Notes under the pieces: generated by a model
The model's database searches: none
The model's input: the letters and a program-made list of their open reading frames with translations, nothing else
Told to the model about the DNA's origin: nothing
Source of the DNA: Micromonospora pallida
GTDB lineage: Bacteria; Actinomycetota; Actinomycetes; Mycobacteriales; Micromonosporaceae
NCBI RefSeq assembly: GCF_900090325.1
Contig: NZ_FMHW01000002.1
Coordinates: forward strand, 62,001-126,000
DNA: 64,000 nucleotides
Direction of reading: 5' to 3'
Position numbers and translations under genes: made by a program
In this document: positions 45,466-58,399 of the stretch, in pieces
Layout of the letters: every line of letters begins with the position of its first letter
Numbering within the stretch: position 1 is the first letter of the stretch

Positions 45466-45556
45466 TGGTAGCAGGGGTCCCCTGCTCATCAAAAAGCGTG
45501 AGGAGGGGTCCCCTGCTCATCAGAAAACGTGAGCAGGGGACCCCTCCTACCACCTC
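45466..45556. repeat. Compound palindromic repeat, family 1 (three cores)
   Basis: Three tandemly placed cores: GCAGGGGTCCCCTGC near 45471-45485, GAGGGGTCCCCTGC near 45504, and GCAGGGGACCCCTCC near 45533-45547. The last two form a hairpin with 19-bp arms around a CATCAGAAAACG spacer. It lies between the convergent membrane protein and PIG-L genes. Confidence 0.85.
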
Positions 45557-45582: not shown

Positions 45583-45818
45583 TCAGCGCACGCTGACCTG
45601 GTCGGCCCGGGCTCCGTCGCCGGCCTCGAAGGCGGCCAGCAGGGACGTCGGCGTGCCACCGGCGACCGGCACCACGACGGTCACCGACCGGCCGGCGGTC
45701 AGGTCGACCGTGTGGCTGCCGAGGGATCGGTCACCGTCCCAGGTGTACAGGTACGCCGTGCCGGTGCGGTCGGCGCGCAGGGTCACCCGTACGCCGTCCC
45801 GGGTCACCTGCTGGTCGG
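45583..45818 (-). pseudogene. Frameshifted C-terminal domain of the PIG-L protein
   Basis: Beyond the in-frame stop at 45819 the sequence continues, in the neighbouring frame, as a well-formed beta domain (VTDQQVTRDGVRVTLRADRT, DGDRSLGSHTVDLTAG) and ends in a normal stop at 45583. A single missing base in the GGGG run near 45830 would join them as PEG-ALRVTD. It has no start of its own. Either a real frameshift mutation or a sequencing error. Confidence 0.7.
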
Positions 45819-48281
45819 TCACCCGCAGTGCCCCTCGGGCAGCTTCGCCACGGCGGCCGGGGCCACCCCGTCCACTGCGGACTGCGCGATGGTCTGCGGG
45901 CTGTGCACGCTGCGGGCGGCGGTGTCCGGGAAGACCGGCTTGCTCGGCTCCCGGTCGCCCGGGGTGTAGCCGGGCAGGGTCATCAGGCCGTACCGGTACG
46001 GGTCGGCGCGCACCCCGGTGAAGGTGGACCAGCCCAGCCGGGACTGCGAGCTGAGGTCCTGGGTGTCCGAGTCGTAGACCAGCACGTTGAAGCCCATCCG
46101 GGCCGGGTCGACCGCGTCCGGCAGCACCGCGAACGGGATGCTCGCCTCGATGGTGTAGCCGGTGTACGGCTCGCTGACCTTGCTGACCACGGTCATCCCC
46201 GGCGCGGTCTGGGCGCCCGGGCCCTGCCGGTTGTCGGCGTCGCGCTGCCAGCACGGCGGGTTGCCGTTGGCCGGGTCGTCGGTGATCGGGAAGATGCCGG
46301 CCTTGAACACGGTGGAGGTGTCCGAGGAGTCGCCCTTCGGGTCGACGATGATCTCGACGCTGTCGGTTCGCCGCTGCCGCTTGCAGTCCTGCGGCACCAC
46401 CTTCTTGCCGAGTACGTCGTCGGTGACCTGCACGATCACCTTCAGCGCGTCCTCGGTGTACGCGATCCGACCCTTCGCCGAGGCGTCCTGCCCGGTGACG
46501 GCCTGACCCTCCCAGATCCGGGAGAAGTCCAGTTCCTCGCCGGGGTATTCGCCCGGTGCGGCCTCGCCGTCGACGGCGTGGTCGTGCCCGGCGTGCGGGA
46601 CCTCGCTGGTCGGCACGATCTCCAGGGCGCCGGTCTCGACGTTGGTGCCGGAGCCGCTGGTGGTGGTGATGGTGATGCCGTAGTCGCCGTTCTCGCCCCC
46701 CTCGTTGGCGGTGGGCAGCGATGGGTCGCTGTTGGTCACGGTGAAGGTGACCGCGCCGGTCGCCCCGGCGGCGAGGTCGGTGTAGCTCTTCGTCGCCGCG
46801 TCGGCGGTGAAGCCGGCGGGTAGACCGAGGGTGACGCTGCCGCTCTGCGGGGTCGTGCCGTGGTTGCGCAGGTCGACGCGGACCTGGCGGCTCTTGCCGG
46901 AGCCGAGGGTGAGCACCGGCTTGATCAGGGTGTCGAGCTGCGGGTAGCCCTCCGCGCCGGCCCAGTCCCGGAACATCCCGACCTCGGGCAGCGGCTCCAG
47001 GGTGCCCCGCACGTCGGCGACCACCCGGACGGCCCGGTCGGTGCGGCCGGCGCCCTGGCCGGTGGTGAGGGTCGCGCCGAGCAGTGACTGCTGGTTGGTG
47101 TCGGCATCGGCCGGCACGGTGACGGTGAAGGTGGTGGTGCGTTCCTGGCCCGGGGCGACCGCGCCGCGCAGCGCACCGGAGCCCGTGGCGGTCCAGCCCT
47201 CGGGCAGGCGCAGGGCGACCGTCGGCGTGGTCAGCGCCCGCTTCGCGGCCCGTACGTGGGCGGTGACCTCGACGGTCTGACCGGGGGTGAGGTCGAACCG
47301 GTCGGCGGTCAGGTGGAACTCGGTGTCCTCGGGGAGACCGCCGTTGACGGCCGGGAGCACCGAGCCGCGCAGGATCGCCTCGGGGGAGGTGTCCGCCGGG
47401 TCGTACGGCACCCGGCTGTCGACCAGCGTGTAGAAGTCGCAGCGCTGCTGTGCCGGGTTGGTCGGGGCGGCGGCGGTGTTCGCCCAGCCCTGGGTGACGT
47501 AGTCGCGGCGGGCGTCAACCTCGATCTCGGCCCAGGACTTGCCGGTCTTGCTGAGGGTGCCCTCCCAGACGCCGAAGACCTGGTCGGTGGGGACCGTCGG
47601 GGTGAAGCTGGTCGCGCAGGCCGGGCCGGCCGACGAACTGCCGGTGCCGCCGGTACGGAGGAACTTCGCCGGCCGGAACGGCGTGAGCCCCTCCTCGCTG
47701 AGCTGCTCGGGGAACGCCTTCGGGTCGGCGGCGGCGTGGAACGCCTCGGCGGCGAACCGGGCGGCCTGCTGGTGGTTGCCGTGGTTGCCCGGGGTCGGCG
47801 ACGGGTTCATGGTCATGACGATCTCGGGCCGGGTCTGCCGGATCACCCGGACGATCTGGGCCAGGGTGTCGTCGTGGCCCCAGATCTGCTCGGACAGGGG
47901 CGCGGAGGCGGTGTACCAGAAGTCGACCCGGTCCAGGTTGTAGAGGTTTTCCACCCCGGCCCGGCCGATGGCGGTGCGTTCCTCGCGCTCCCGGATGATG
48001 CCCAGCGGCGGGCCCTCCTCCAGGCCGACCGCGTTGCCGCCGCCCTCACCACGGGTGATGGTGACGACGCCGGAGCGGACGCCGAAGTTCTCCTTCCACT
48101 GGCCGAGGGTGGCGAGGCTGCCGGCCTCGTCGTCGGGGTGGGCGCTGACGAAGAGCACGTCCAGGTCGACCGCGTCGGTCGGCTTGGCGTCGGTGGTGCC
48201 GTCGGGGGCGGCGAGGGCGGCGGGTGCCCCGGAGAGGGCCAGGGCGAGCGCGGTGGGTAACAGGAACGCCTTGAATCGCAT
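45819..48281 (-). CDS. Secreted PIG-L-family N-deacetylase with beta-domain tail
   Basis: An 820-aa exported enzyme. The signal peptide (MRFKAFLLPTALALALSGAP) ends near ALA. The PIG-L domain (about 40-260) has the zinc motif LFVSAHPDDEAG and a later HGNHQQAARFA, the His-Asp-Asp/His set of GlcNAc-type deacetylases such as MshB. Two or more NEW3/CARDB-like beta domains follow (from about 390), then a DOMON-like carbohydrate-binding region with YTEDALKVIVQVTDDV and YTIEASIPFAVLPD. ATG at 48281 follows GGAAGGATCC. Divergent from the ROK repressor, so it is probably in the same regulon and removes an acetyl group from an extracellular amino sugar. The C-terminus appears frameshifted. Confidence 0.9.
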   Translation of the reverse strand: MRFKAFLLPTALALALSGAPAALAAPDGTTDAKPTDAVDLDVLFVSAHPDDEAGSLATLGQWKENFGVRSGVVTITRGEGGGNAVGLEEGPPLGIIREREERTAIGRAGVENLYNLDRVDFWYTASAPLSEQIWGHDDTLAQIVRVIRQTRPEIVMTMNPSPTPGNHGNHQQAARFAAEAFHAAADPKAFPEQLSEEGLTPFRPAKFLRTGGTGSSSAGPACATSFTPTVPTDQVFGVWEGTLSKTGKSWAEIEVDARRDYVTQGWANTAAAPTNPAQQRCDFYTLVDSRVPYDPADTSPEAILRGSVLPAVNGGLPEDTEFHLTADRFDLTPGQTVEVTAHVRAAKRALTTPTVALRLPEGWTATGSGALRGAVAPGQERTTTFTVTVPADADTNQQSLLGATLTTGQGAGRTDRAVRVVADVRGTLEPLPEVGMFRDWAGAEGYPQLDTLIKPVLTLGSGKSRQVRVDLRNHGTTPQSGSVTLGLPAGFTADAATKSYTDLAAGATGAVTFTVTNSDPSLPTANEGGENGDYGITITTTSGSGTNVETGALEIVPTSEVPHAGHDHAVDGEAAPGEYPGEELDFSRIWEGQAVTGQDASAKGRIAYTEDALKVIVQVTDDVLGKKVVPQDCKRQRRTDSVEIIVDPKGDSSDTSTVFKAGIFPITDDPANGNPPCWQRDADNRQGPGAQTAPGMTVVSKVSEPYTGYTIEASIPFAVLPDAVDPARMGFNVLVYDSDTQDLSSQSRLGWSTFTGVRADPYRYGLMTLPGYTPGDREPSKPVFPDTAARSVHSPQTIAQSAVDGVAPAAVAKLPEGHCG

Positions 48282-48696
48282 GCGGATCCTTCCGCTGGGC
48301 GCGGGTCCGGGCAGCGGCCGGCGGCGTCGGGCGCACGGCGGCACCGACGCGGGGTCGCGTTCGGACGGCTGATGGGGGACGGTCGGCGGGAGGCGCGGCA
48401 GGGCGCGGTCCACACCGGGGTACGCAGCGGTACGGGCATCCGTACACACTGGAAGGCCTTCGCCGGTGACGCTAGGGACCGGCGAGTCGGCCCGTCAATG
48501 CTTTGCAAGGTCTTTCTTTGTTTGCGGAAGAAATAAAGTCGGCCAAGCGGGCCATGATCACCCGGAGCATCCGGCTCGGCCACGCTTGGTCGACATCTCG
48601 TCAAGGCTGTGTTTCCCCAGGCAGTGAAGGCTCCCGCCGGGAGTCGAGACCCTTTCGTTACTTGACTCGTTAATTCGTTCGCCGTAGGAAGGAAGT
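48282..48696. promoter_or_regulatory. Divergent promoter/operator region of the ROK locus
   Basis: A 415-base gap with striking AT-rich islands in GC-rich DNA: AAGGTCTTTCTTTGTTTGCG with GAAGAAATAAAG around 48509-48538, and TTACTTGACTCGTTAATTCG around 48657-48676. ROK repressors of the NagC type bind AT-rich operators, so these two islands are likely operators or promoters for the PIG-L gene and the transporter operon. Confidence 0.6.
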
Positions 48697-49860
48697 GTGA
48701 GTGACGTGGTGACGCCACCGACGAGCCCGGTGAGCCGGGAGCGGGCGAAGGAGATCAAGCGGCTTTCCGTGATCTCCACCGCCCGCCAGGTCCGGGTGCT
48801 CTCCCGCGCTGAGCTGACCGAGCTCACCGGGCTGAGTCCGGCCACGCTCACCCCGTTGGTCCGCGAGCTGATCGCCGAGGGCTACCTGATCGAGCGGGGA
48901 CCCGGGGCGTCCCGGGCCGGTCGTCCCCGGGCGATGCTGGAGTTCAACCCCCGGGCCGAGCTGGTCGCCGCGGTCTCCCTGGAGCCGTCCCGGCTGACCT
49001 GCGAGATCGCCGACAGTGACGGCACGGTGGTCGCCCACCGCACCGTCCGGCTCACCGGTGACATCGTCGACACCGTCTGCCGGTCGGTGCCCGAGCTGGC
49101 TGGCGACGGCCTGCCGGCGCTGCGCGGGGTGGCCATCGCCGCGCCCGGGATCTCCTCCGGCGGCGCGGTCCGGCTCGCCCCCTCGGTGGGGGTGGTCGAG
49201 GGCCGCCCGATAGGGGAGTCGGTGCAGCGGCGGCTCGGGGTGCCGGTGGTCGTGGACAACGACGTCAACCTGATGGCGGCTGGCGAGCACGCCGCCGGGG
49301 CCGGCAGCGACGTGGCCGACCTGCTGTTGTTGCACGTCGCCGACGGCATCGGCGCCGGCCTGGTGCTCGACGGGCAGGTCCGCCGGGGCGCGGGCGGCGC
49401 GGCCGGCGAGGTCGGCTTCCTGCCGCTGGACCCGACCGACCAGGGCCACGACGGGATCGGTCCGTTCGAGGACCGCTGGTCGGAGAACGCCATCGCCGAG
49501 CGGGTGGTCGCGCTGGCCCCCGGCCGGCGGCCGGACACACCGGTGGCCGCCCTGGTCGAGCTGGCCGGGACCGACCGTCGGGCCGCCACCTACCTGGACG
49601 AGGTGCTCACCGCCTGGTCCCGGCTGATCGTCTCCTGCGTCTGCGTCGTCGACCCGGGTCGGGTGCTGCTCAGCGGGGCCGCCACCCAGCTCGACGACGC
49701 CGCCGTCGACCGGCTCCAGGCGCTGGTCGCCGCCGCCGTGCCCAGCCCGACCGAGGTACGCCGGGCGGTGCTCGGCGACCGGGCGGTGCTGCACGGCGCG
49801 GTCAGCTACGCGCTCTCCGCGGCCGCCGCCGGCCTGCCCCACCTGCTTCCCAGTCCCTGA
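48697..49860 (+). CDS. ROK-family transcriptional repressor
   Basis: A 387-aa NagC/XylR-type regulator. The winged HTH is at about residues 25-70 (LSRAELTELTGLSPATLTPL). The sugar-binding ROK domain follows, with VVVDNDVNLMAAGEHAAG and GIGAGLVLDGQVRRGAGGAAGEVGF; the latter part normally precedes the Cys-rich zinc motif, which is absent here. GTG at 48697 follows GGAAGG. It is 36 bases before the solute-binding protein and divergent from PIG-L, so it probably senses a sugar or sugar derivative and controls both directions. Confidence 0.94.
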   Translation: MSDVVTPPTSPVSRERAKEIKRLSVISTARQVRVLSRAELTELTGLSPATLTPLVRELIAEGYLIERGPGASRAGRPRAMLEFNPRAELVAAVSLEPSRLTCEIADSDGTVVAHRTVRLTGDIVDTVCRSVPELAGDGLPALRGVAIAAPGISSGGAVRLAPSVGVVEGRPIGESVQRRLGVPVVVDNDVNLMAAGEHAAGAGSDVADLLLLHVADGIGAGLVLDGQVRRGAGGAAGEVGFLPLDPTDQGHDGIGPFEDRWSENAIAERVVALAPGRRPDTPVAALVELAGTDRRAATYLDEVLTAWSRLIVSCVCVVDPGRVLLSGAATQLDDAAVDRLQALVAAAVPSPTEVRRAVLGDRAVLHGAVSYALSAAAAGLPHLLPSP

Positions 49861-49896
49861 CCAGCAGTTCTCCATCACCCCCTTCGGAGGTACCCC

Positions 49897-50949
49897 ATGA
49901 GACGTCGACTTCTCCTCGCCGGGGCGCTCGCCGCCGTGCTCGCCGCCGGCACCGCGTGCGGTAGTGGCGGCGGTGACGACGCGGCCGGCGGCGGCGCGAC
50001 CGCCGAGAAGCTGACCATCTACACGGCCCGCGACAAGAAGGTCTCCGACTACGTGGTGGAGCAGTTCACCGCCAAGTACCCGGAGTACAAGGGCAAGGTC
50101 GAGATCCTCAACCTGGGCGCGCAGGAGATCCTGGAGCGGGTCCGGGCGGAGAAGGCCAACCCGCAGGCCGACGTCTGGTGGGGTGGCACCCAGCAGGGAC
50201 TCTCCGCGGGCGCGTCCGAGGACCTGCTCGCCCCCATCCAGCCGAGCTTCGCCGGCAAGATGGACGCCAAGTACAAGGACGCCGAGGGCCGCTGGTTCGG
50301 GGAGATCCTGCTGCCCGAGGTCATCATGTACAACAACAAGGCGCTCACCCCGGAGCAGGCCCCGAAGGACTGGGACGACCTGCTCAAGCCGGAGTGGAAA
50401 GACAAGATCATCATCCGGGACGTGGCCGCGTCAGGCACCATGCGGTCGATCTACTCCGCGATGATCGTGCGGCAGTCGCCCGACGGCAGCAACCCGCAGC
50501 CCGGCTACGACTGGCTGAAGAAGCTCGACGCCAACACCGGCGCGTACGCCGCCAACCCGACCGACCTGTACCTGAAGCTCTCCCGGCAGCAGGGCACGCT
50601 CAGCGCCTGGAACCTCCAGGACGTCCTGCTCCAGGCCAACCAGTCCAACATGCCGTTCGGGTACGTGATGCCGGCCTCCGGCGCGCCGGTGCTGGTCGAC
50701 GGCCTCGCCGCGGTCAAGGGCGGCAACACCGAGGGTGCGCAGAAGTTCCTCGAGTTCCTTTTCGACGACAAGCTCCGGGGTGACCTGGCCAAGGAGTACT
50801 TCCAGATCCCGGCGGTGGAGATCGCCGAGCAGCCGGAGTGGCTGGCCCAGCTCGACCTGAAGCCGCTCGACGTCGACTGGGACGTGATCGGCAAGAACGA
50901 GACCGAGTGGATCAACCACTGGAACAGCCAGATCAAGAACAAGGGCTGA
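49897..50949 (+). CDS. ABC transporter solute-binding lipoprotein
   Basis: A 350-aa lipoprotein. The signal RRRLLLAGALAAVLAAG ends in a lipobox before Cys. The mature protein is a family 1 extracellular binding protein: LTIYTARDKKVSDYVVEQF, ADVWWGGTQQGLSAGASEDL, and GEILLPEVIMYNNKALTPEQ resemble AfuA/FutA and phosphonate-type binders that capture ferric ion, sugar phosphates or aminoalkyl ligands. A good GGAGG precedes ATG 49897. It delivers ligand to the ATPase and permease that follow. Confidence 0.95.
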   Translation: MRRRLLLAGALAAVLAAGTACGSGGGDDAAGGGATAEKLTIYTARDKKVSDYVVEQFTAKYPEYKGKVEILNLGAQEILERVRAEKANPQADVWWGGTQQGLSAGASEDLLAPIQPSFAGKMDAKYKDAEGRWFGEILLPEVIMYNNKALTPEQAPKDWDDLLKPEWKDKIIIRDVAASGTMRSIYSAMIVRQSPDGSNPQPGYDWLKKLDANTGAYAANPTDLYLKLSRQQGTLSAWNLQDVLLQANQSNMPFGYVMPASGAPVLVDGLAAVKGGNTEGAQKFLEFLFDDKLRGDLAKEYFQIPAVEIAEQPEWLAQLDLKPLDVDWDVIGKNETEWINHWNSQIKNKG

Positions 50950-51046
50950 CCGCGCGGACGCCGGACCGGGGCCGACCCGGTCCGGCGTACCCGCCCGTCA
51001 GTGGTGCGCCCGGCTGGGCGGCGTACCGCACGAAGGAGAGGGCCTC

Positions 51047-52120
51047 ATGATCGATGTCACGCTGGAGTCGGTGAGCAAGCGCTTCGCCCGGGGCGGCGAC
51101 ACCGCGGCCGTGGACGACGTCGACATCACCATCGCCGCCGGGGAGTTCTTCACCCTGCTCGGCCCGAGCGGCTGCGGCAAGACCACCACCCTGCGGATGG
51201 TGGCCGGGTTCTACTTCCCCACCTCCGGGCGGATCCGCTTCGGCACCGAGGACGTCACCCGCCGGCCGCCGAACAAGCGCGACACCGGCATGGTCTTCCA
51301 GAACTACGCGCTCTTCCCGCACATGAGCGTGGCGCAGAACGTCGCGTACGGCCTCAAGATCCGCAAGGTGAACCGGGCCGAGTCCCGGCGGCGGGTCGAG
51401 GAGGCGCTCGGCCAGGTGCACCTCGCCGGCTACGGCGACCGGCGCATCGACGAGCTCTCCGGCGGCCAGCAGCAGCGGGTCGCGCTGGCCCGCGCCCTGG
51501 TGATCCGGCCGCGCACCCTGCTGCTCGACGAGCCGCTGTCGAACCTCGACGCCAAGCTGCGTGAGGAGACCCGTACCGAGATCCGCCGCATCCAGCAGGA
51601 GGCCGGCACCACCGCCATCTACGTCACCCACGACCAGGCCGAGGCGATGGCCATGTCGGACCGGATCGCGGTGATGCAGTCCGGCCGGGTGCAGCAGATC
51701 GGCGCGCCGCAGGAGATCTACCACCGGCCGGCGAACGCCTTCGTGGCCCGGTTCATCGGCCGCAGCAACGTGCTCGACCTGCCGGTGGTCGGCGCGGCCG
51801 AGCAGACCGTCACGGTCCGGCTGCCCGGCGGCGGCGAGGTCACCGTCGGCGCGCCCACCGGCCACGGGCGGACGGCGGGCGGGACCGCCCTGGTCTCGGT
51901 CCGCCCCGAGCACATCGCCCTGACCACGACCACCGACCCGGACGCGCTGCCCGGCCGGGTCACCGAGGTGGAGTTCACCGGCATGGCCACCAACCTGGTG
52001 GTCGACCTGGCCGGCGAGCCGGTGCAGGTGGCCGCCGTGGACGTGCCGGCGGGCATCGCCGTCGGTGACCAGGTCGGCCTGCGGCTCAACCGCGACCGGA
52101 TGTGGGTGGTGCGCCCGTGA
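51047..52120 (+). CDS. ABC transporter ATPase (PotA/FbpC-like)
   Basis: A 357-aa ATPase. Walker A is GPSGCGKTTTLRM, Q-loop region VFQNYALFPHMS, signature LSGGQQQRVALARAL, Walker B LLLDEPLSNLDAKL and the switch His in YVTHDQAEAM. The C-terminal TOBE-like domain (about 280-357) is typical for PotA/FbpC. ATG at 51047 follows GAAGGAGAGG. Its stop overlaps the permease start as GTGA. It powers import of the ligand bound by the upstream lipoprotein. Confidence 0.97.
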   Translation: MIDVTLESVSKRFARGGDTAAVDDVDITIAAGEFFTLLGPSGCGKTTTLRMVAGFYFPTSGRIRFGTEDVTRRPPNKRDTGMVFQNYALFPHMSVAQNVAYGLKIRKVNRAESRRRVEEALGQVHLAGYGDRRIDELSGGQQQRVALARALVIRPRTLLLDEPLSNLDAKLREETRTEIRRIQQEAGTTAIYVTHDQAEAMAMSDRIAVMQSGRVQQIGAPQEIYHRPANAFVARFIGRSNVLDLPVVGAAEQTVTVRLPGGGEVTVGAPTGHGRTAGGTALVSVRPEHIALTTTTDPDALPGRVTEVEFTGMATNLVVDLAGEPVQVAAVDVPAGIAVGDQVGLRLNRDRMWVVRP

Positions 52121-53910
52121 GCACCATCCCCGTTACCCCGAGCGCGGCCACCGTCCCACCGGTCACCGAGGACCCGACGCCGCCGCGCGCCCCGCGCCGC
52201 CGGCTCGCCGACCGCTTCGGCGGCGGCGCCGGCTCGCGCTGGTTCCCGTACGTGCTGGTCTTCCCGCTGGCGCTGATCCTCTTCGGGTACGTCGTCCAGC
52301 CGATGTTCGCCACCTTCGCGGAGAGCGTCGGCGTGAACGGGGTGGCGAACTACACCGCCTTCCTCAGCGGCGACGGGGTGGCCCGGTCCGCCCTGGTCAC
52401 CTCGCTGATCATCTCGGCGGCGAGCGTGCTGCTCTGCGGGATCGTCGGTGTGGCGATGGCCTTCCTGCTGAAGCGCTTCTCGTTCCCCGGGCGTGGCCTG
52501 ATCGAGGCGATCATCCTGGTGCCGGCGGCCCTGCCGCCGCTGATCGGGGCGATCTCGTTCCAGTTGCTCTACAGCGAGACCGGCATCCTGCCGCGTGGCC
52601 TCCAGCAGCTCTTCGGCGCCGAGAACCCGGTGCTGCCGTTCAGCGGCATCGCGGGCGTGCTGGTGGTGCACACCTTCACCATGTACCCGTACTTCTACCT
52701 GGCCACCTCGGCCGCGCTGACTGGGATGGACCCGTCGGTGGAGGAGGCCGCGTACAACCTGGGGGCCGGGCGGGTCCGGGTCTGGCGTACGGTGCTGCTG
52801 CCGATGCTCACCCCGGCGCTGGTCTCCGCCTCGCTGCTGGTCTTCATGACCTCGCTGGCGTCGTACACCGCCCCGCTGCTGTTCGGGGTGGACCGGACGA
52901 TGACCATGCAGATCTACATCAACCGCACCAACGGCGACCTGCCGATGGCCTCCACGTACGCCTCGGTGCTCGGTGTGGTCTCGGTGCTGTTCCTGCTCGG
53001 CATGCGCTGGTACGAGGGACGGCGCAGCTACCGCTCCCAGTCCAAGGGCGTGGCCAGCCACCGGCGGGAGATCACCAACCCGTTCGGGCGCTGGGCGGCG
53101 CTGGTCGCGTCGCTGCTGGCCACCGCCGTGCTGCTCGCCCCGGTGGCGACCATCGCCCTGGTGGCGTTCTCCGAGGACGGCTCCTGGACCACCGAGGTGA
53201 TCCCGGCCGCCTACACCACGGCCAACTTCGTCACGATCTTCTCGGACCCGGAGGCGTTCCAGCCGATCCTGAACTCGCTCCAGATGAGCCTGATCGCCAC
53301 CGTCGGCTGCGTCGTGGTCGGCGTGCTCATCGCGTACGCGGTGCGCCGGCTGGACTTCCGGGGCCGGGGCCTGCTGGACGTGGCGGTCATGCTGGCCTGG
53401 GCGCTGCCCGGCACGGTGGTCGCGATCAACCTGATCTCGGCGTTCAGCACCGGCAACGCGTTCAGCTTCGGGCAGGTGCTGATCGGCACCTTCTGGATCA
53501 TGCCGCTGGCGTACTTCGTCCGGTTCCTGCCGCTGGTGTTCCGCTCCAGCTCGGCCAGCCTGGCCCAGCTCGACCCGTCGCTCGAGGAGGCTGCCCGCAA
53601 CCTGGGCGCGTCCTGGTGGCGGGCGTTCGGGTCGGTGACCCTGCGGCTGATGCTGCCCGGTGTGCTGGCCGGCGCGCTGCTCGCCTTCGTGCACGGGGTC
53701 GGCGAGTTCGTCGCCTCGGTGCTGATCTACACCTCGGACACCGCGCCGATCTCGGTGGAGATCAACAACCGGATGTACTCGTTCGAGGTCGGCACCGCCG
53801 CCGCGTACGGCATGCTCCAGGTCGTGCTGATCTTCGTGGTGATGGTGCTCTCCGGCCGGCTGGAGGGCGGCCGGCGCTCCACCCGGGAGGCGGCCCGGTG
53901 GACGGCGTGA
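52117..53910 (+). CDS. Fused double ABC permease (FbpB-like)
   Basis: A 597-aa inner-membrane protein with two permease halves in one chain, each of about six helices. The first EAA-like loop is EEAAYNLGAGRVRVWRTVLL near residue 210; the second is EEAARNLGASWWRAFGSVTL near 490. Such fused permeases are usual for FbpB iron and phosphonate-type importers. GTG at 52117 overlaps the ATPase stop; an upstream GTG-like start adds five residues without support. It forms the channel for the transporter of this operon. Confidence 0.95.
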   Translation: MSTIPVTPSAATVPPVTEDPTPPRAPRRRLADRFGGGAGSRWFPYVLVFPLALILFGYVVQPMFATFAESVGVNGVANYTAFLSGDGVARSALVTSLIISAASVLLCGIVGVAMAFLLKRFSFPGRGLIEAIILVPAALPPLIGAISFQLLYSETGILPRGLQQLFGAENPVLPFSGIAGVLVVHTFTMYPYFYLATSAALTGMDPSVEEAAYNLGAGRVRVWRTVLLPMLTPALVSASLLVFMTSLASYTAPLLFGVDRTMTMQIYINRTNGDLPMASTYASVLGVVSVLFLLGMRWYEGRRSYRSQSKGVASHRREITNPFGRWAALVASLLATAVLLAPVATIALVAFSEDGSWTTEVIPAAYTTANFVTIFSDPEAFQPILNSLQMSLIATVGCVVVGVLIAYAVRRLDFRGRGLLDVAVMLAWALPGTVVAINLISAFSTGNAFSFGQVLIGTFWIMPLAYFVRFLPLVFRSSSASLAQLDPSLEEAARNLGASWWRAFGSVTLRLMLPGVLAGALLAFVHGVGEFVASVLIYTSDTAPISVEINNRMYSFEVGTAAAYGMLQVVLIFVVMVLSGRLEGGRRSTREAARWTA

Positions 53911-54860
53911 CGACCTGGCCGGCCGGGGGCGGGCTGATCCCCGCCACCCGGATCCCCGGCGGCGAACTGGCCGCGGTCGCCGCGGCAGCCGACTTCGCGG
54001 TGCTGCCGGTCGGCGCGGTCGAGTGGCACGGTCCGCACCTGCCGCTCGGCACCGACCTGATCCTCGCCGAGGGCTTCGCCCGCGAGAGCGCCGCCGACGC
54101 GTCGGCGGACGTGCCGGCGGGCGACCACGCGCCGGCCGCCGGAAGCGCCACCGGCGGCGCCGGTCCGCGTGGGGTGCTCTTTCCCGCCGTGCCGTACGCG
54201 GCCTGCCCCGGACAGACCCGCCCCTGGCCGGGCACCGTGGCGATCCGCCCGGAGATCGCCGTCGGCTACCTCGCCGACGTGATCGAGGGGATCGTGGCGG
54301 CCGGCTTCCCCCGACTGCTGATCGTCAACGGGCACGACGCCAACATGTCCACCGTCCGGGCCGCGATGGAGTGGGTCTCCGGGCGGCGTAGGGCCAGCCT
54401 GCTGCTGGTCAACTGGTTCCAACTGGTCACCCCGGAGGAGACCACCGCGCTGTACGGGCCGCTGCCGGCGCGCGGGCACGGCGGGGCGTACGAGACCTCC
54501 GGTGTGCTCGGCTTCGACCCGGACGCGGTCCGCCTCGGCGCGGTCGACGACCTGCCGCCGAAGCCCAAGCTGCCGGTCCCGCACCCGTACGTGCTCGTGG
54601 AGTCCCGGCCCGACCCGTGGCAGGGCTGGTCCGGGCACATCTCGCTGGCCGACGAGACGATCGGCCGACGGGTCCGGGAACTGGCCGGCGGGCGGCTGCG
54701 CGAGATCATCGCCGCCTGGGTGGCCGCCGAACCCCCGGCCGCCCCCACCGCCGACCCGCTGCCGGGTCCGGCCCCGGCCGGTGCGCGGCCGGCCGGCACC
54801 CCGGCCGACGTGCCCACCGCCGACTCCCGGCTGAATCCGTCCCCCGGGGAGGACTCGTGA
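53898..54860 (+). CDS. Creatininase-family amidohydrolase
   Basis: A 320-aa metal-dependent hydrolase. The family motif VLPVGAVEWHGPHLPLGTD gives the Glu, His and Asp ligands; LIVNGHDANMSTVRAAM and ARGHGGAYETSG supply the remaining His and Glu. Creatininase-fold enzymes open cyclic amides or cleave amide and peptide bonds (creatinine, formamides, MftE). GTG at 53898 has GGGAGG seven bases upstream; GTG at 53907, overlapping the permease stop, is an alternative. The last 40 residues are a disordered Pro/Ala tail. Probably cleaves an amide in the imported compound. Confidence 0.93.
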   Translation: MDGVTTWPAGGGLIPATRIPGGELAAVAAAADFAVLPVGAVEWHGPHLPLGTDLILAEGFARESAADASADVPAGDHAPAAGSATGGAGPRGVLFPAVPYAACPGQTRPWPGTVAIRPEIAVGYLADVIEGIVAAGFPRLLIVNGHDANMSTVRAAMEWVSGRRRASLLLVNWFQLVTPEETTALYGPLPARGHGGAYETSGVLGFDPDAVRLGAVDDLPPKPKLPVPHPYVLVESRPDPWQGWSGHISLADETIGRRVRELAGGRLREIIAAWVAAEPPAAPTADPLPGPAPAGARPAGTPADVPTADSRLNPSPGEDS

Positions 54861-55810
54861 CCGTCGACCGGGGACTCGACGTCGTCGACTTCCACCTGCA
54901 CTTCCGCATCGGCACGGACCAGACGATCCGGTGCTGCGAGGACGCCGCCGGCATGCACCCCGGCGGGGAGCACGAGCGGGCCGTCCGGGCCGCCGGCTCC
55001 GCCCCGTACGCGGCGCAGTGGCGGCAGGCGTGGGGCTTCCCCGACCCGGAGCCGCCGGCCGAGCGCTGGCAGGACGAGGCGGACCGGTGGGCCGACGAAC
55101 TGCGGGCGGTGCACGTCCGGCGGGCGGTCTTCGTCACCGGCGGCGGCAACGACACCCTCGCCGACGTCGTCGACCGCCACCCCGACCTGCTGCTCGGCTT
55201 CGCCCACCACGACCCGTACGCCCCCGGGGCCGCCGCCGAACTGGAACGCGCGGTGGTCGAACGCGGCCTGCGCGGGCTGAAGCTCTTCGCCCCGCTGCTG
55301 CGCGGCCCCCTCGACCACGCCGACCTCGACCCGCTCTGGGGCACCGCCCAGCGGCTCGGCGTGCCGGTGCTGGTCCACATCGGGCACTACGGGAGCGCCG
55401 GCGGGCTCTCCCACGGCCGGCACGGTGGCCCGGACGAGCTGGCCCGGATGGCCCGGCGCTTCCCGGAGCTGGCCGTGGTGGTGCCGCACTTCGGCGTCCA
55501 GCACGTGCAGGACCTCTTCTTCGCCGCGTGGGGCTGCCCGAACATCCACGTCGACACCTCCGGCTCCAACCAGTGGGTGCGTTGGATGCCGTACAAACTG
55601 ACCCTGGAGGACCTCTTCCGGCGCTGTTACGAGACCATCGGCCCGCACCGGATCGTGTTCGGCAGCGACTCGTCGTGGTTCCCGCGCGGTTACGTCACCC
55701 GCTACCTCGACGACCAGCTCCGCATCTGCCGGGAGCTGGGACTGCCCGACGACCACCTGCGCGCGATCTTCGCCGGGAACGCCGAGCGGCTGCTCGGCCT
55801 CGACGACTGA
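54857..55810 (+). CDS. Amidohydrolase 2-family metal-dependent hydrolase
   Basis: A 317-aa TIM-barrel enzyme. The metal motif HLH is in VVDFHLHFRIG near residue 13; other ligands are likely in LVHIGHYGSA, VVPHFGVQHVQD and the Asp in VFGSDSSWFPRG. This pattern fits the amidohydrolase-2 group, which includes hydrolases and ACMSD-type decarboxylases. GTG start overlaps the creatininase-like stop as GTGA. A twin Cys (IRCCEDAAG) near residue 25 is unusual. Acts on the same pathway, either after or before the creatininase-like step. Confidence 0.9.
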   Translation: MTVDRGLDVVDFHLHFRIGTDQTIRCCEDAAGMHPGGEHERAVRAAGSAPYAAQWRQAWGFPDPEPPAERWQDEADRWADELRAVHVRRAVFVTGGGNDTLADVVDRHPDLLLGFAHHDPYAPGAAAELERAVVERGLRGLKLFAPLLRGPLDHADLDPLWGTAQRLGVPVLVHIGHYGSAGGLSHGRHGGPDELARMARRFPELAVVVPHFGVQHVQDLFFAAWGCPNIHVDTSGSNQWVRWMPYKLTLEDLFRRCYETIGPHRIVFGSDSSWFPRGYVTRYLDDQLRICRELGLPDDHLRAIFAGNAERLLGLDD

Positions 55811-55870
55811 CCGGCTGACGTCGGGCGCGGCGAGCGACGCGTCCGGCCTGGAAGGAAGAAGACACCCGTC

Positions 55871-57328
55871 ATGAGCACACCCCCGCTGACCACCTACCAG
55901 CGGCACCACCTGCGGCCCACGTACGACCACCACGTCGGGTACCTGTTTCCGGCGATGGTGCGGGCCAGCCAGGCACACGTGGTGATGCTGACCGAGCAGG
56001 GGCTCGTCCCCGCCGAACGGGGCGCCCGGCTGCTGCGCGGCCTCGCCGAACTGCGCGCCGACGCCACGCCCGCGCCGGAGTTCGACGGCACCTTCGAGGA
56101 CACCTACTACCTGCTGGAGAAGCGGCTCGCCGAGGCGTGCGGCATTCCCGCGTCCGAACTGGACGTGCAGATGGCCCGTAGCCGCAACGACCTGGACGCC
56201 GGGGTGTTCCGGATGCTCCTACGCGACCAGCTCGTCGGTGTGCTCGACCGGGTGCTCGCCACCGGGGCGACCGTGCTGGACGCCGCGCACCGGTACGCCG
56301 ACGTGGTGATCACCGGCTACACGCACCGCCGGCCCGCCCAGCCCACCACCATCGGGCACGCCCTCGCCGGGTACGCCGAAGCGCTGGCCGGCGAGGCCGT
56401 CGCGTACACCGACCTGATCGACTTGCTCAACACCTCGCCGCTGGGCTCCTGCGCGTTCGCCGGCACCGACCTGGACATCGCCCCCGCCCGGGTGGCCGAG
56501 CTGCTCGGCTTCGCCGCCCTGGTCACCAACTCGTACGAGGCGGTGGCCGGGGCCGACCACCTGGTCCGGGTGGGCACGCTCAACGCGCAGGCCCTCGCCA
56601 CCGGCGCGCGGCTGGCCCGCACCCTGATGGACTGGCTGACCTGGCGCTGGGTGACCACCCCCGGCGACTTCACCCAGGGCAGCAGCATCATGCCGCAGAA
56701 GCGCAACCCGGTGGTGCTGGAACACCTGGTCTCGATGGCCGGGGCGACCGCCGCCGACGCCGCCAGCGTGCTCAACAACGTCGGCGCGGCCTGGTGGGAG
56801 GACTCCAACAACGCCACCACCGACGTGCAGGTCCGGCTCTGGGAGAGCAACGACCGGACGAACCGGTTCTTCGCCCTGCTCGGCGGCTTCCTCGCCGAGA
56901 TCGAACCGTTGGCGCCGCCGTCGGCGGAGGAGATCGTCGCCTCCGGGGCGACCACCACCGCCGCCGCGGACGCGTTGACCCGGCACGGCGTGCCGTTCCG
57001 GGCCGCCCACTCGGTGGTCGGCCGGCTGGTCCGGGGCGGTGCCCCGGACACCTGGACCGCCGCAGACGTACGCGCGGCGGCCGAGGGGATCGCCGACGGA
57101 CTCGACGACGCCGCGATCGACGGCCTAATCGCCGCCGCCGTCCGTCCCGAGCGGGTGCTCGACCGGGTCCAGGTCGACGGTCCCGGCGCGAACGCGGTAC
57201 GGGCCCAGGTGGCGACCCTGCGCGTCGCCTTCGACGGGGTCACCGGCCGGCTCGACGCGGTTCGCGACCGGCTGGCCCGCGCCGACGCGGCCCTCGACGC
57301 CGTCGCCGCCGAACGGGCGGCCCGGTGA
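55871..57328 (+). CDS. Argininosuccinate lyase-like C-N lyase
   Basis: A 485-aa member of the argininosuccinate lyase/fumarase superfamily. The signature loop GSSIMPQKRNPVVLEHL is intact at about residues 273-289, with its flexible-loop Ser; the other conserved regions include QMARSRNDLDAGVF and GYTHRRPAQPTTIGHAL. No arginine biosynthesis genes are nearby, and it sits in a catabolic transporter operon, so it probably eliminates a fumarate-like or related acid from an imported N-linked compound rather than making arginine. ATG at 55871 follows GGAAGGAAG. Confidence 0.93.
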   Translation: MSTPPLTTYQRHHLRPTYDHHVGYLFPAMVRASQAHVVMLTEQGLVPAERGARLLRGLAELRADATPAPEFDGTFEDTYYLLEKRLAEACGIPASELDVQMARSRNDLDAGVFRMLLRDQLVGVLDRVLATGATVLDAAHRYADVVITGYTHRRPAQPTTIGHALAGYAEALAGEAVAYTDLIDLLNTSPLGSCAFAGTDLDIAPARVAELLGFAALVTNSYEAVAGADHLVRVGTLNAQALATGARLARTLMDWLTWRWVTTPGDFTQGSSIMPQKRNPVVLEHLVSMAGATAADAASVLNNVGAAWWEDSNNATTDVQVRLWESNDRTNRFFALLGGFLAEIEPLAPPSAEEIVASGATTTAAADALTRHGVPFRAAHSVVGRLVRGGAPDTWTAADVRAAAEGIADGLDDAAIDGLIAAAVRPERVLDRVQVDGPGANAVRAQVATLRVAFDGVTGRLDAVRDRLARADAALDAVAAERAAR

Positions 57329-57395
57329 ACGCGCCCGCCCGCGCAATGGGCAGCCGGGTGAGCGCGCCCGCCCGCTCGACCGGTAGGCGCGACCG

Positions 57396-58325
57396 GTGAG
57401 CGTCGGACTGACCGGCCGGGCGGCCCAGCCCGCGCCGGTGGCCGGTGACCGGCCGGTGCTGCTCGGCATCGACTTCGGCGGCACCAAGATGGCGGTCGGG
57501 GTGGCCGACGGGCAGGGCCGGCTGCTGGTCCGCGAACGGGTCCCCACGCACGCCGAACAGGGCGCCCCGCAGGCACTGGACCGGGCGCTGGCGTTGGCCG
57601 CGAAACTGCTGGGGCAGGTCGGCGCTCCGGTCGCGGCGGCCGGCGTGGCCTCGCCCGGCGTGGTCCGGCCGGACGGCATCGACCTGGCCCCGAACGTGCC
57701 CGGTTGGGACCGGCTGCGGCTGGCCGACGCGGTCCGTGACCGGTTCGGGGTGACCGCCGTCGCGGTGGACAACGACCTGAACGCCGCCGCCCTGGCCGAG
57801 GTACGCCTCGGCGCGCTGCGCGACGCCGACCCCGGGCTGGTGGTCGGCCTCGGCACCGGCGTCGCGGCGGCGGTCACCGTGGGCGGCCGGGTCGTCGCCG
57901 GCCACCGGGGCGCGGCCGGCGAGATCGGGTACGCCGTCGCCGGTGGACCCTGGCCGGGCACCATGCTGGAACTCGACTTCTCCGGCCGGGCGCTGGACCG
58001 GCTCGCCGACGAACTGGGCGTACCGGGCGGCGCGGCCGGGCTGGCCACCGCGGCCGCGCGTCCCGGCCCGGCCCGGGACGCGCTCACCGCCCGGGTCGAC
58101 GAGTTCGCCCGGCACCTGGTCACCTGCTGCCTGCTGCTGGACCCGCAGCGGGTGGTGCTGGTGGGCGGGGTGGCCGGCAGCGACCTGATCCGGGGCCTGC
58201 TGACCGAACGGCTCGGCGCGGTGCTGCCGTACCGGCCGGAGGTGGTGCTCTCCCGGTTCGCCGACGACGCCGCCCTGCACGGCGCGGTGATCCTCGCCCA
58301 CGAGGCGATCCCCGCGTCCCGCTGA
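57396..58325 (+). CDS. ROK-family sugar kinase
   Basis: A 309-aa kinase-type ROK protein without HTH. The phosphate loop is LLGIDFGGTKMAVGVAD; the base is the Asp in VAVDNDLNAAALAE; adenosine region VVGLGTGVAAAVTVGG. The expected CXCGXXGC zinc motif is missing, replaced by EIGYAVAGGPWPGTMLEL, which is seen in some ROK kinases of unusual specificity. GTG at 57396 has no strong ribosome site; the gap from the lyase is 67 bases. Probably phosphorylates the freed sugar, and a hairpin ends the operon just after it. Confidence 0.9.
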   Translation: MSVGLTGRAAQPAPVAGDRPVLLGIDFGGTKMAVGVADGQGRLLVRERVPTHAEQGAPQALDRALALAAKLLGQVGAPVAAAGVASPGVVRPDGIDLAPNVPGWDRLRLADAVRDRFGVTAVAVDNDLNAAALAEVRLGALRDADPGLVVGLGTGVAAAVTVGGRVVAGHRGAAGEIGYAVAGGPWPGTMLELDFSGRALDRLADELGVPGGAAGLATAAARPGPARDALTARVDEFARHLVTCCLLLDPQRVVLVGGVAGSDLIRGLLTERLGAVLPYRPEVVLSRFADDAALHGAVILAHEAIPASR

Positions 58326-58330
58326 CCGCC

Positions 58331-58362
58331 TCCGGATGCCGACGGGGGCGTCGGCATCCGGA
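58331..58362 (+). terminator. Hairpin terminator closing the ROK operon
   Basis: Perfect 13-bp arms at 58331-58343 and 58350-58362 with a GGGGGC loop, six bases after the kinase stop and before the convergent membrane protein gene. Confidence 0.8.
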
Positions 58363-58399
58363 GACCGGACCGGTCAGTGGGAGGCACCGGGCGCACCGG

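Follow-up and report, generated by a model that had tools for sequence, protein, structure and literature searches.

A conserved gene cluster of Micromonospora pallida with an argininosuccinate lyase-like enzyme may degrade hexosamine-dicarboxylate conjugates

We analyzed a 64,000-nucleotide stretch of Micromonospora pallida DNA (contig NZ_FMHW01000002.1, positions 62,001 to 126,000; termed the window, in whose coordinates positions are given) from a genome of 7.76 Mb. An earlier note had described there a ROK-controlled system for uptake and degradation, and open reading frames (ORFs) together with Pfam and NCBIfam models recover its gene families at the positions it gave: nine genes, one on the minus strand and eight on the plus strand. 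The minus-strand gene (45819..48281) encodes a secreted PIG-L/LmbE hydrolase. On the plus strand lie, in order, a ROK-family regulator (48697..49860; PF00480, with a NagC-like score of 86 bits, under the cut-off), an SBP_bac_6 solute-binding (lipo)protein (49897..50949), an ABC importer ATPase (51047..52120), a fused permease with two BPD_transp_1 domains (52117..53910), a Creatininase-family metal hydrolase (53907..54860), an Amidohydrolase_2-family (Amidohydro_2) enzyme (54857..55810), an argininosuccinate lyase-like (ASL-like) enzyme with Lyase_1 and ASL_C2 domains (55871..57328), and a second ROK protein, a predicted hexosamine kinase (57396..58325). The several 4-bp overlaps claimed at the outset number exactly three, all GTGA: between ATPase and permease (52117-52120, with the GTG start of the permease inside the overlap with the ATPase stop), permease and creatininase-like gene (53907-53910), and creatininase-like gene and amidohydrolase (54857-54860). 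Gaps of 60 bp and 67 bp separate the amidohydrolase from the lyase and the lyase from the kinase. The closing hairpin is also present, on the plus strand at 58331..58362 and without a T run; the 55-nt piece 58326-58380 folds at -38.2 kcal/mol (z -4.93), and none of 200 shuffles folded equally well.

The lyase (PF00206/PF14698), which matches that of Micromonospora haikouensis at 91 %, is labelled argininosuccinate lyase in public sources. We reject its identity as ArgH. It shares the fold family and the catalytic segments SRND, TH, and GSSIMPQK with ArgH, while its leaving-group side is altered and the ArgH segment YN(K/R)DxQEDKE is absent; on the ArgH model TIGR00838, it scores 216 bits against a cut-off of 279.5. 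A separate, true ArgH of at least 558 bits is present in 16 of 17 genomes tested (563 bits in the window's own genome); the exception, a 1.9-Mb metagenome-assembled genome (MAG), yielded the lyase alone. In a quick tree built from 75 of the 100 rows (25, mostly close relatives, were removed by hand, and long-branch warnings were given), 16 ArgH proteins fall on one side of a branch with support 100, and 55 ASL-like rows fall on another with support 88. The tight grouping with true ArgH that would have spoken against the original proposal is thus not seen, as far as sequence can tell. The genome carries a third ASL homologue (∼1677085-1679633; L148:8586-11134), directly after an arginase-family gene; it scores 303 bits on the ArgH model, above the cut-off, and lies outside the clade of the window lyase.

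The best solved relative of the window lyase is the EDDS lyase of Chelativorans sp. BNC1 (PDB 6g3d-6g3i; 157 bits over 363 residues), a member of the same superfamily at low identity; the partners of the window lyase are sugar genes. An EDDS-lyase fragment groups beside ArgH in the tree (support 83). Of the residues that passages of PMC12363623 place near the EDDS lyase substrate (R112, N113, Q159, N288, D290, and Y320), R112, N113, and N288 have equivalents in our alignment, while Q159 is replaced by His152 and D290 by an invariant Val281, and the loosely aligned segment of Y320, which is not kept, carries an invariant Asp311. Because residues 309-312 are poorly placed in the model of the window lyase, we make no claim about its pocket. 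From the chemistry of the superfamily, the expected product is fumarate or a close analogue; the bond broken is at least as likely to be C-O as C-N.

The partners of the lyase are conserved. With 25 aligned lyases as query, the search yielded 278 candidate stretches, of which 239 encoded a relative; the best 80 were kept, giving 79 loci, some of them cut by contig ends. Partners counted by tblastn (E≤1e-8, at least 60 aa) were the regulator in 66 loci, ATPase in 65, permease in 64, binding protein in 63, PIG-L in 45, amidohydrolase in 43, creatininase-like gene in 38, ROK kinase in 38, and a PfkB kinase in 27. Four actinobacterial layouts account for 65 of the 79. The first combines creatininase-like gene, amidohydrolase, and ROK kinase (21 loci in Micromonospora and Plantactinospora; PIG-L in 16); the second keeps the creatininase-like gene and ROK kinase without the amidohydrolase (17 loci in some Micromonospora, Dactylosporangium, Jiangella, Georgenia, and others; PIG-L in 13). 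The third has PfkB and amidohydrolase without a creatininase-like gene (18 loci in Saccharopolyspora, Saccharomonospora, Actinomadura, Arthrobacter, and Cryobacterium; PIG-L in none), and the fourth has PfkB without amidohydrolase (nine loci in Brachybacterium, Tessaracoccus, and others; PIG-L in eight). PIG-L is found in eight of the other 14 loci. PIG-L and amidohydrolase are mutually exclusive across the PfkB groups, which suggests that they may substitute for each other (Fisher 8e-6 with two loci lacking upstream room omitted, 4e-6 with them; kinship not corrected). Locus L051 has neither, and its PfkB match spans only 66 aa. Locus L027 (Micromonospora sp. ATCC 39149) is reduced to a PIG-L fragment, ROK gene, amidohydrolase fragment, and lyase; its importer genes were not found.

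The same association is seen in 150 Micromonosporaceae genomes. The lyase occurs in 21 (E≤1e-120), and the creatininase-like gene (1e-60) occurs in those same 21, always within 1.2 kb of the lyase, and in one further genome, G461. The PIG-L domain (1e-60) was detected in 17 genomes, comprising 15 of the 21 lyase carriers and two of the 129 others. It lies within 8 kb of the lyase in 14 of these 15 carriers and 4 Mb away in G441; in G436, G517, and L023, it is on the other flank yet linked. In G461, the creatininase-like and PIG-L genes are ∼6 kb apart and no lyase matched at 1e-120, so that the lyase was either lost, replaced, or not assembled. These counts bear out the original view of one conserved uptake-and-degradation system. 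The module is real, conserved, and, in our searches of the open-licence PMC literature, undescribed; we found no pathway there that would contradict the earlier statement that none was known.

In other phyla, relatives of the lyase keep PIG-L, ROK, amidohydrolase, or creatininase-like genes under changed importers. Among Acidobacteriota, the lyase is present in 18 of 149 genomes (1e-100), and in the 18 contexts (tblastn E≤1e-5), the genes nearby include PIG-L and a TonB receptor (11 contexts each, with one more weak match for the receptor), an SSF symporter (12), a ROK gene (10), and an amino-acid permease (four). The order in locus L078 is ROK-TonB-SSF-PIG-L-lyase. In Chloroflexota, four of 201 genomes carry the lyase (1e-120); four of six loci from this phylum or the unclassified MAG RI_153 (L079, L082, L084, and L153) combine an amidohydrolase with an SBP_bac_1/8-type importer, with a small PIG-L added in L079 and a BadF-family kinase in L084. 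A phylum labelled Bacillota (that of G010) has the lyase in 13 of 43 genomes (1e-100). Of 17 matches there, 12 loci were read: four have an amidohydrolase and an SBP_bac_1/8-type importer, and seven have no partners. In L191, from the same phylum, the lyase adjoins a ROK gene, a binding protein (57 %), an ATPase, a permease, and a creatininase-like gene. The acidobacterial and chloroflexal lyases (P0121-P0240 and L085-L106) are labelled argininosuccinate lyase wherever the sources give a name, which is likely an annotation error, their genomes also having a true ArgH.

The PIG-L protein combines PF02585 with NEW3 repeats and a CBM9-like domain (CBM9_1); its ATG start at 48281 and its signal peptide were judged by eye, and the longest ORF begins at 48449. 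Its HPDDE and HGxHQ segments are invariant in all 18 aligned PIG-L domains, so that the HPDD and a later His agree with the metal motif of the family, HXDD plus H, as given in parts of a 2014 review (PMC4101496). The main frame stops at 45819. The left boundary first proposed, 45583, nonetheless marks the end of a real conserved tail, since tblastn of the tail alone locates it at 45583..45840 on the minus strand (upstream limit approximate), ending at 45583 in a different frame, while in locus L042 the matching 70 aa (69 %) are in one continuous frame with the rest of the protein. Weaker tblastn matches to the tail were found in 17 further loci among those listed. The shift of frame in the window reflects either an error of sequencing or a true lesion. 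Between the PIG-L gene and a convergent upstream gene, at ∼45500-45550, there is a near-perfect long inverted repeat (GGAGGGGTCCCCTGCTCA ... TGAGCAGGGGACCCCTCC), probably a terminator shared by the two genes.

The PIG-L and ROK genes diverge from a region that holds an AT-rich palindrome (48512..48538), partly kept among 13 Micromonospora including the window. L006 and L013 have it in perfect form; in the window it is degenerate, with nine of 12 arm positions paired, and is not significant alone. Arthrobacter L055 has another perfect palindrome ahead of its ROK gene, and no significant repeat was obtained for 19 of 27 regions examined. As a candidate ROK operator, the palindrome would fit a single repressor serving both transcripts. 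An alignment of the 13 Micromonospora intergenic regions also reveals a conserved promoter-region block 5' of the ROK gene (48658..48695, plus strand).

The best solved relative of the binding protein is 6wce, a pyridoxal-5-phosphate binding protein; it is also near 4r72 (AfuA), a likeness to AfuABC-type importers. The binding protein, ATPase, and fused permease also resemble the 2-aminoethylphosphonate-type components PhnS2, PhnT2, and PhnU2, all under the curated cut-offs, and in contrast to phosphonate systems, the window cluster contains no phosphonate genes.

The creatininase-like protein matches PF02633 at 143 bits and reaches 67.5 bits on the creatininase model itself, whose cut-off is 235. 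Its NGHDAN segment (H143, D144, A145, and N146 invariant in all 10 aligned rows) aligns with NGHYEN and lacks the second-metal Glu after the conserved His (E122 of creatininase). In the amidohydrolase (PF04909), HxH, H174, H211, and D271 are invariant in all 14 aligned rows, and lactonase-type and decarboxylase folds tie as matches to its model (pLDDT 83). Amide cleavage by these two enzymes, as first proposed, finds no support in this tie or in the alternation of the two families between lineages; they may instead open a lactam or lactone, or replace the PIG-L step.

The proposed sugar end product is supported, with ROK, PfkB, and BadF kinases accompanying the lyase in the same clusters and a NagB-like gene in seven of the 79 loci. 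In L056 (9956-12403), the lyase and PfkB are fused into one 816-aa protein, which suggests that their steps are consecutive; single ORFs of similar length, judged by length only, occur in L054, L062, and L072. The window kinase scores 114.3 bits on PF00480 (cut-off 22.9), its nearest function-level models fall far under their cut-offs, and the usual ROK zinc loop appears by eye to be missing. The BadF protein of L084 is nearest to a GlcNAc kinase model, at 102 bits against a cut-off of 370, the Arthrobacter NagB-like protein reaches 211.5 on nagB (cut-off 236.9), and a PF01182 (NagB) gene lies elsewhere in the window's genome. The kinases and NagB point to hexosamine-6-phosphate, and the sugar is probably a hexosamine; since the function-level scores are under cut-off, this is what we infer. 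The set thus shares a ROK regulator, a ROK kinase, and a NagB-like gene with NagC/NagK/NagB catabolism, to which it adds the lyase, PIG-L, and the creatininase and amidohydrolase family proteins.

A lead on the dicarboxylate comes from bacillithiol, whose amide-linked glucosamine, according to passages of PMC4065351, has malate as its aglycone. N-acylglucosamines are the substrates of the LmbE enzymes covered by the 2014 review (PMC4101496), in which BshB uses GlcNAc-malate (given as 'maleate') and Bca uses bacillithiol conjugates. BshC exceeds its cut-off in all 18 lyase-bearing Acidobacteria as against 72 of the 149 overall (hypergeometric 5.9e-7, not corrected for kinship). The distance between BshC and the lyase is 0.1-0.3 kb in G148 and G030 and ∼11 kb in G012 (L078, Pyrinomonadaceae), G015 (L083, Blastocatellia), G054, and G155, so that BshC is near in six genomes, in two arrangements; BshA exceeds its cut-off in G030 and G054. 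The small PIG-L beside the lyase in L079 is nearest BshB1 (140 bits, cut-off 182.5), and that genome has no BshC or BshA over cut-off. We regard the BshC association as suggestive, short of proof. BshA-C and Bca, with which the window set shares PIG-L/LmbE chemistry on N-acylglucosamine, make or recycle bacillithiol, whereas the window set, in actinobacterial hosts without BshC, would dismantle it.

Taken together, the sequence evidence leads us to propose, with a probability of about 0.45, that the locus serves ROK-controlled catabolism of a hexosamine that is N-acylated and linked to a C4-dicarboxylate, likeliest glucosaminyl-malate, the bacillithiol backbone. Outside the cell, the secreted PIG-L hydrolase would strip off the N-acyl group; the anionic product would enter through the ABC importer, and the ASL-like enzyme would eliminate fumarate and free the hexosamine. 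With glucosaminyl-malate as substrate, the lyase would cleave C-O, like fumarase, and not C-N, like ArgH. The ROK kinase would then form hexosamine-6-phosphate for NagB, encoded elsewhere in the genome, to pass to glycolysis. What the sequences show directly is the gene content, its conservation over several phyla, the distinctness of the lyase from ArgH, and the associations with sugar kinases, NagB, and, in Acidobacteria, BshC; the substrate and all catalytic steps are inferred. A lactam or lactone of glucosaminyl-malate as a natural target of the creatininase-like protein or amidohydrolase is speculation. We hold the broader substrate class, a hexosamine-dicarboxylate, to be somewhat favored, and the narrower choice of malate or bacillithiol within that class to be tentative. 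The general logic of the earlier note holds. It had suggested an amino-sugar conjugate or an opine-like compound as substrate; the first part probably stands, as an amino-sugar dicarboxylate conjugate, and nothing was found in favor of an opine. Mycothiol was set aside because its aglycone is inositol and not a dicarboxylate, and GlcNAc-asparagine was set aside on chemical grounds because an amide cannot give a carboxylate-stabilized intermediate.

Several observations weigh against this proposal. The PIG-L gene is absent from six of the 21 Micromonosporaceae lyase carriers, from seven of the 18 acidobacterial contexts, and from all 18 PfkB-amidohydrolase loci (16 of which had room for it), so the PIG-L step is not always needed. 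The window PIG-L scores 42 bits or less on the bacillithiol and mycothiol models, and two of the nine genes, the creatininase-like and amidohydrolase genes, are left without an assigned step. G148 and G030 are related (lyases 60 %, BshC 52 % identical) and represent one shared arrangement, none of the counts takes kinship into account, and BshA is not over cut-off in G148. In G012, the housekeeping gene MutL sits between BshC and the ROK gene, so that the nearness of BshC may be an accident; G015, G054, and G155 have ORFs at the corresponding place. In the other 12 of the 18 Acidobacteria, BshC is at least 297 kb off (three genomes) or on a different contig (nine). BshC was not found in any of nine actinobacterial genomes, nor in G013 or G016, and such hosts would therefore have to scavenge the substrate. 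No cysteine gene was seen. The acidobacterial and chloroflexal lyases score above the ArgH cut-off (345-356 bits), and the nearest solved lyase, EDDS lyase, is a C-N lyase.

This last point speaks for an alternative that we consider unlikely: a C-N lyase whose substrate is an aspartate with an N-bound sugar (an Amadori or Heyns glycated aspartate, or an N-succinyl amino sugar) and whose products are fumarate and an amino sugar. EDDS lyase, of broad amine scope, is the best solved relative of the acidobacterial/chloroflexal lyase profile as well as of the window protein, amino-acid permeases replace the symporter in four of the 18 acidobacterial loci, and the kinases and NagB would fit equally. 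This alternative leaves PIG-L, the companion of the lyase in three phyla, without a role, offers no reason for BshC, and does not sit well with the loss of Q159, D290, and Y320. Slightly less probable is that the substrate is another N-acetylhexosamine conjugate (for example, a glycosylated natural product or a glycopeptide remnant), with the lyase acting on the non-sugar half after release of the sugar. PIG-L enzymes do act on diverse N-acetylglucosamine compounds, teicoplanin included (in the portions of PMC4101496 concerned), the best solved relative of the PIG-L profile is LnmX, and the large secreted PIG-L bears carbohydrate-binding domains; however, a constant core with changing importers across phyla fits a common metabolite better, and the L056 fusion speaks for consecutive lyase and kinase steps. 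A spare argininosuccinate lyase within an ordinary sugar-uptake operon, suggested by the public name and by the scores of the acidobacterial and chloroflexal relatives, is very improbable given the separate ArgH in 16 of 17 genomes, the support of 100 for the ArgH branch, the missing signature segment, and the linkage of the lyase to the same non-arginine partners throughout.

If glucosaminyl-malate or bacillithiol is indeed the substrate, the locus might represent the first pathway for eating either compound, with a secreted PIG-L amidase or deacetylase, phylum-specific importers, and an ASL-family elimination yielding fumarate and glucosamine in at least four phyla; we put this forward as a doubtful but specific possibility. 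A pathway spread over at least four phyla would then be concealed by the database label argininosuccinate lyase, and the use of elimination, not hydrolysis, to release the sugar of a malate O-glycoside would be an unusual form of glycoside cleavage.

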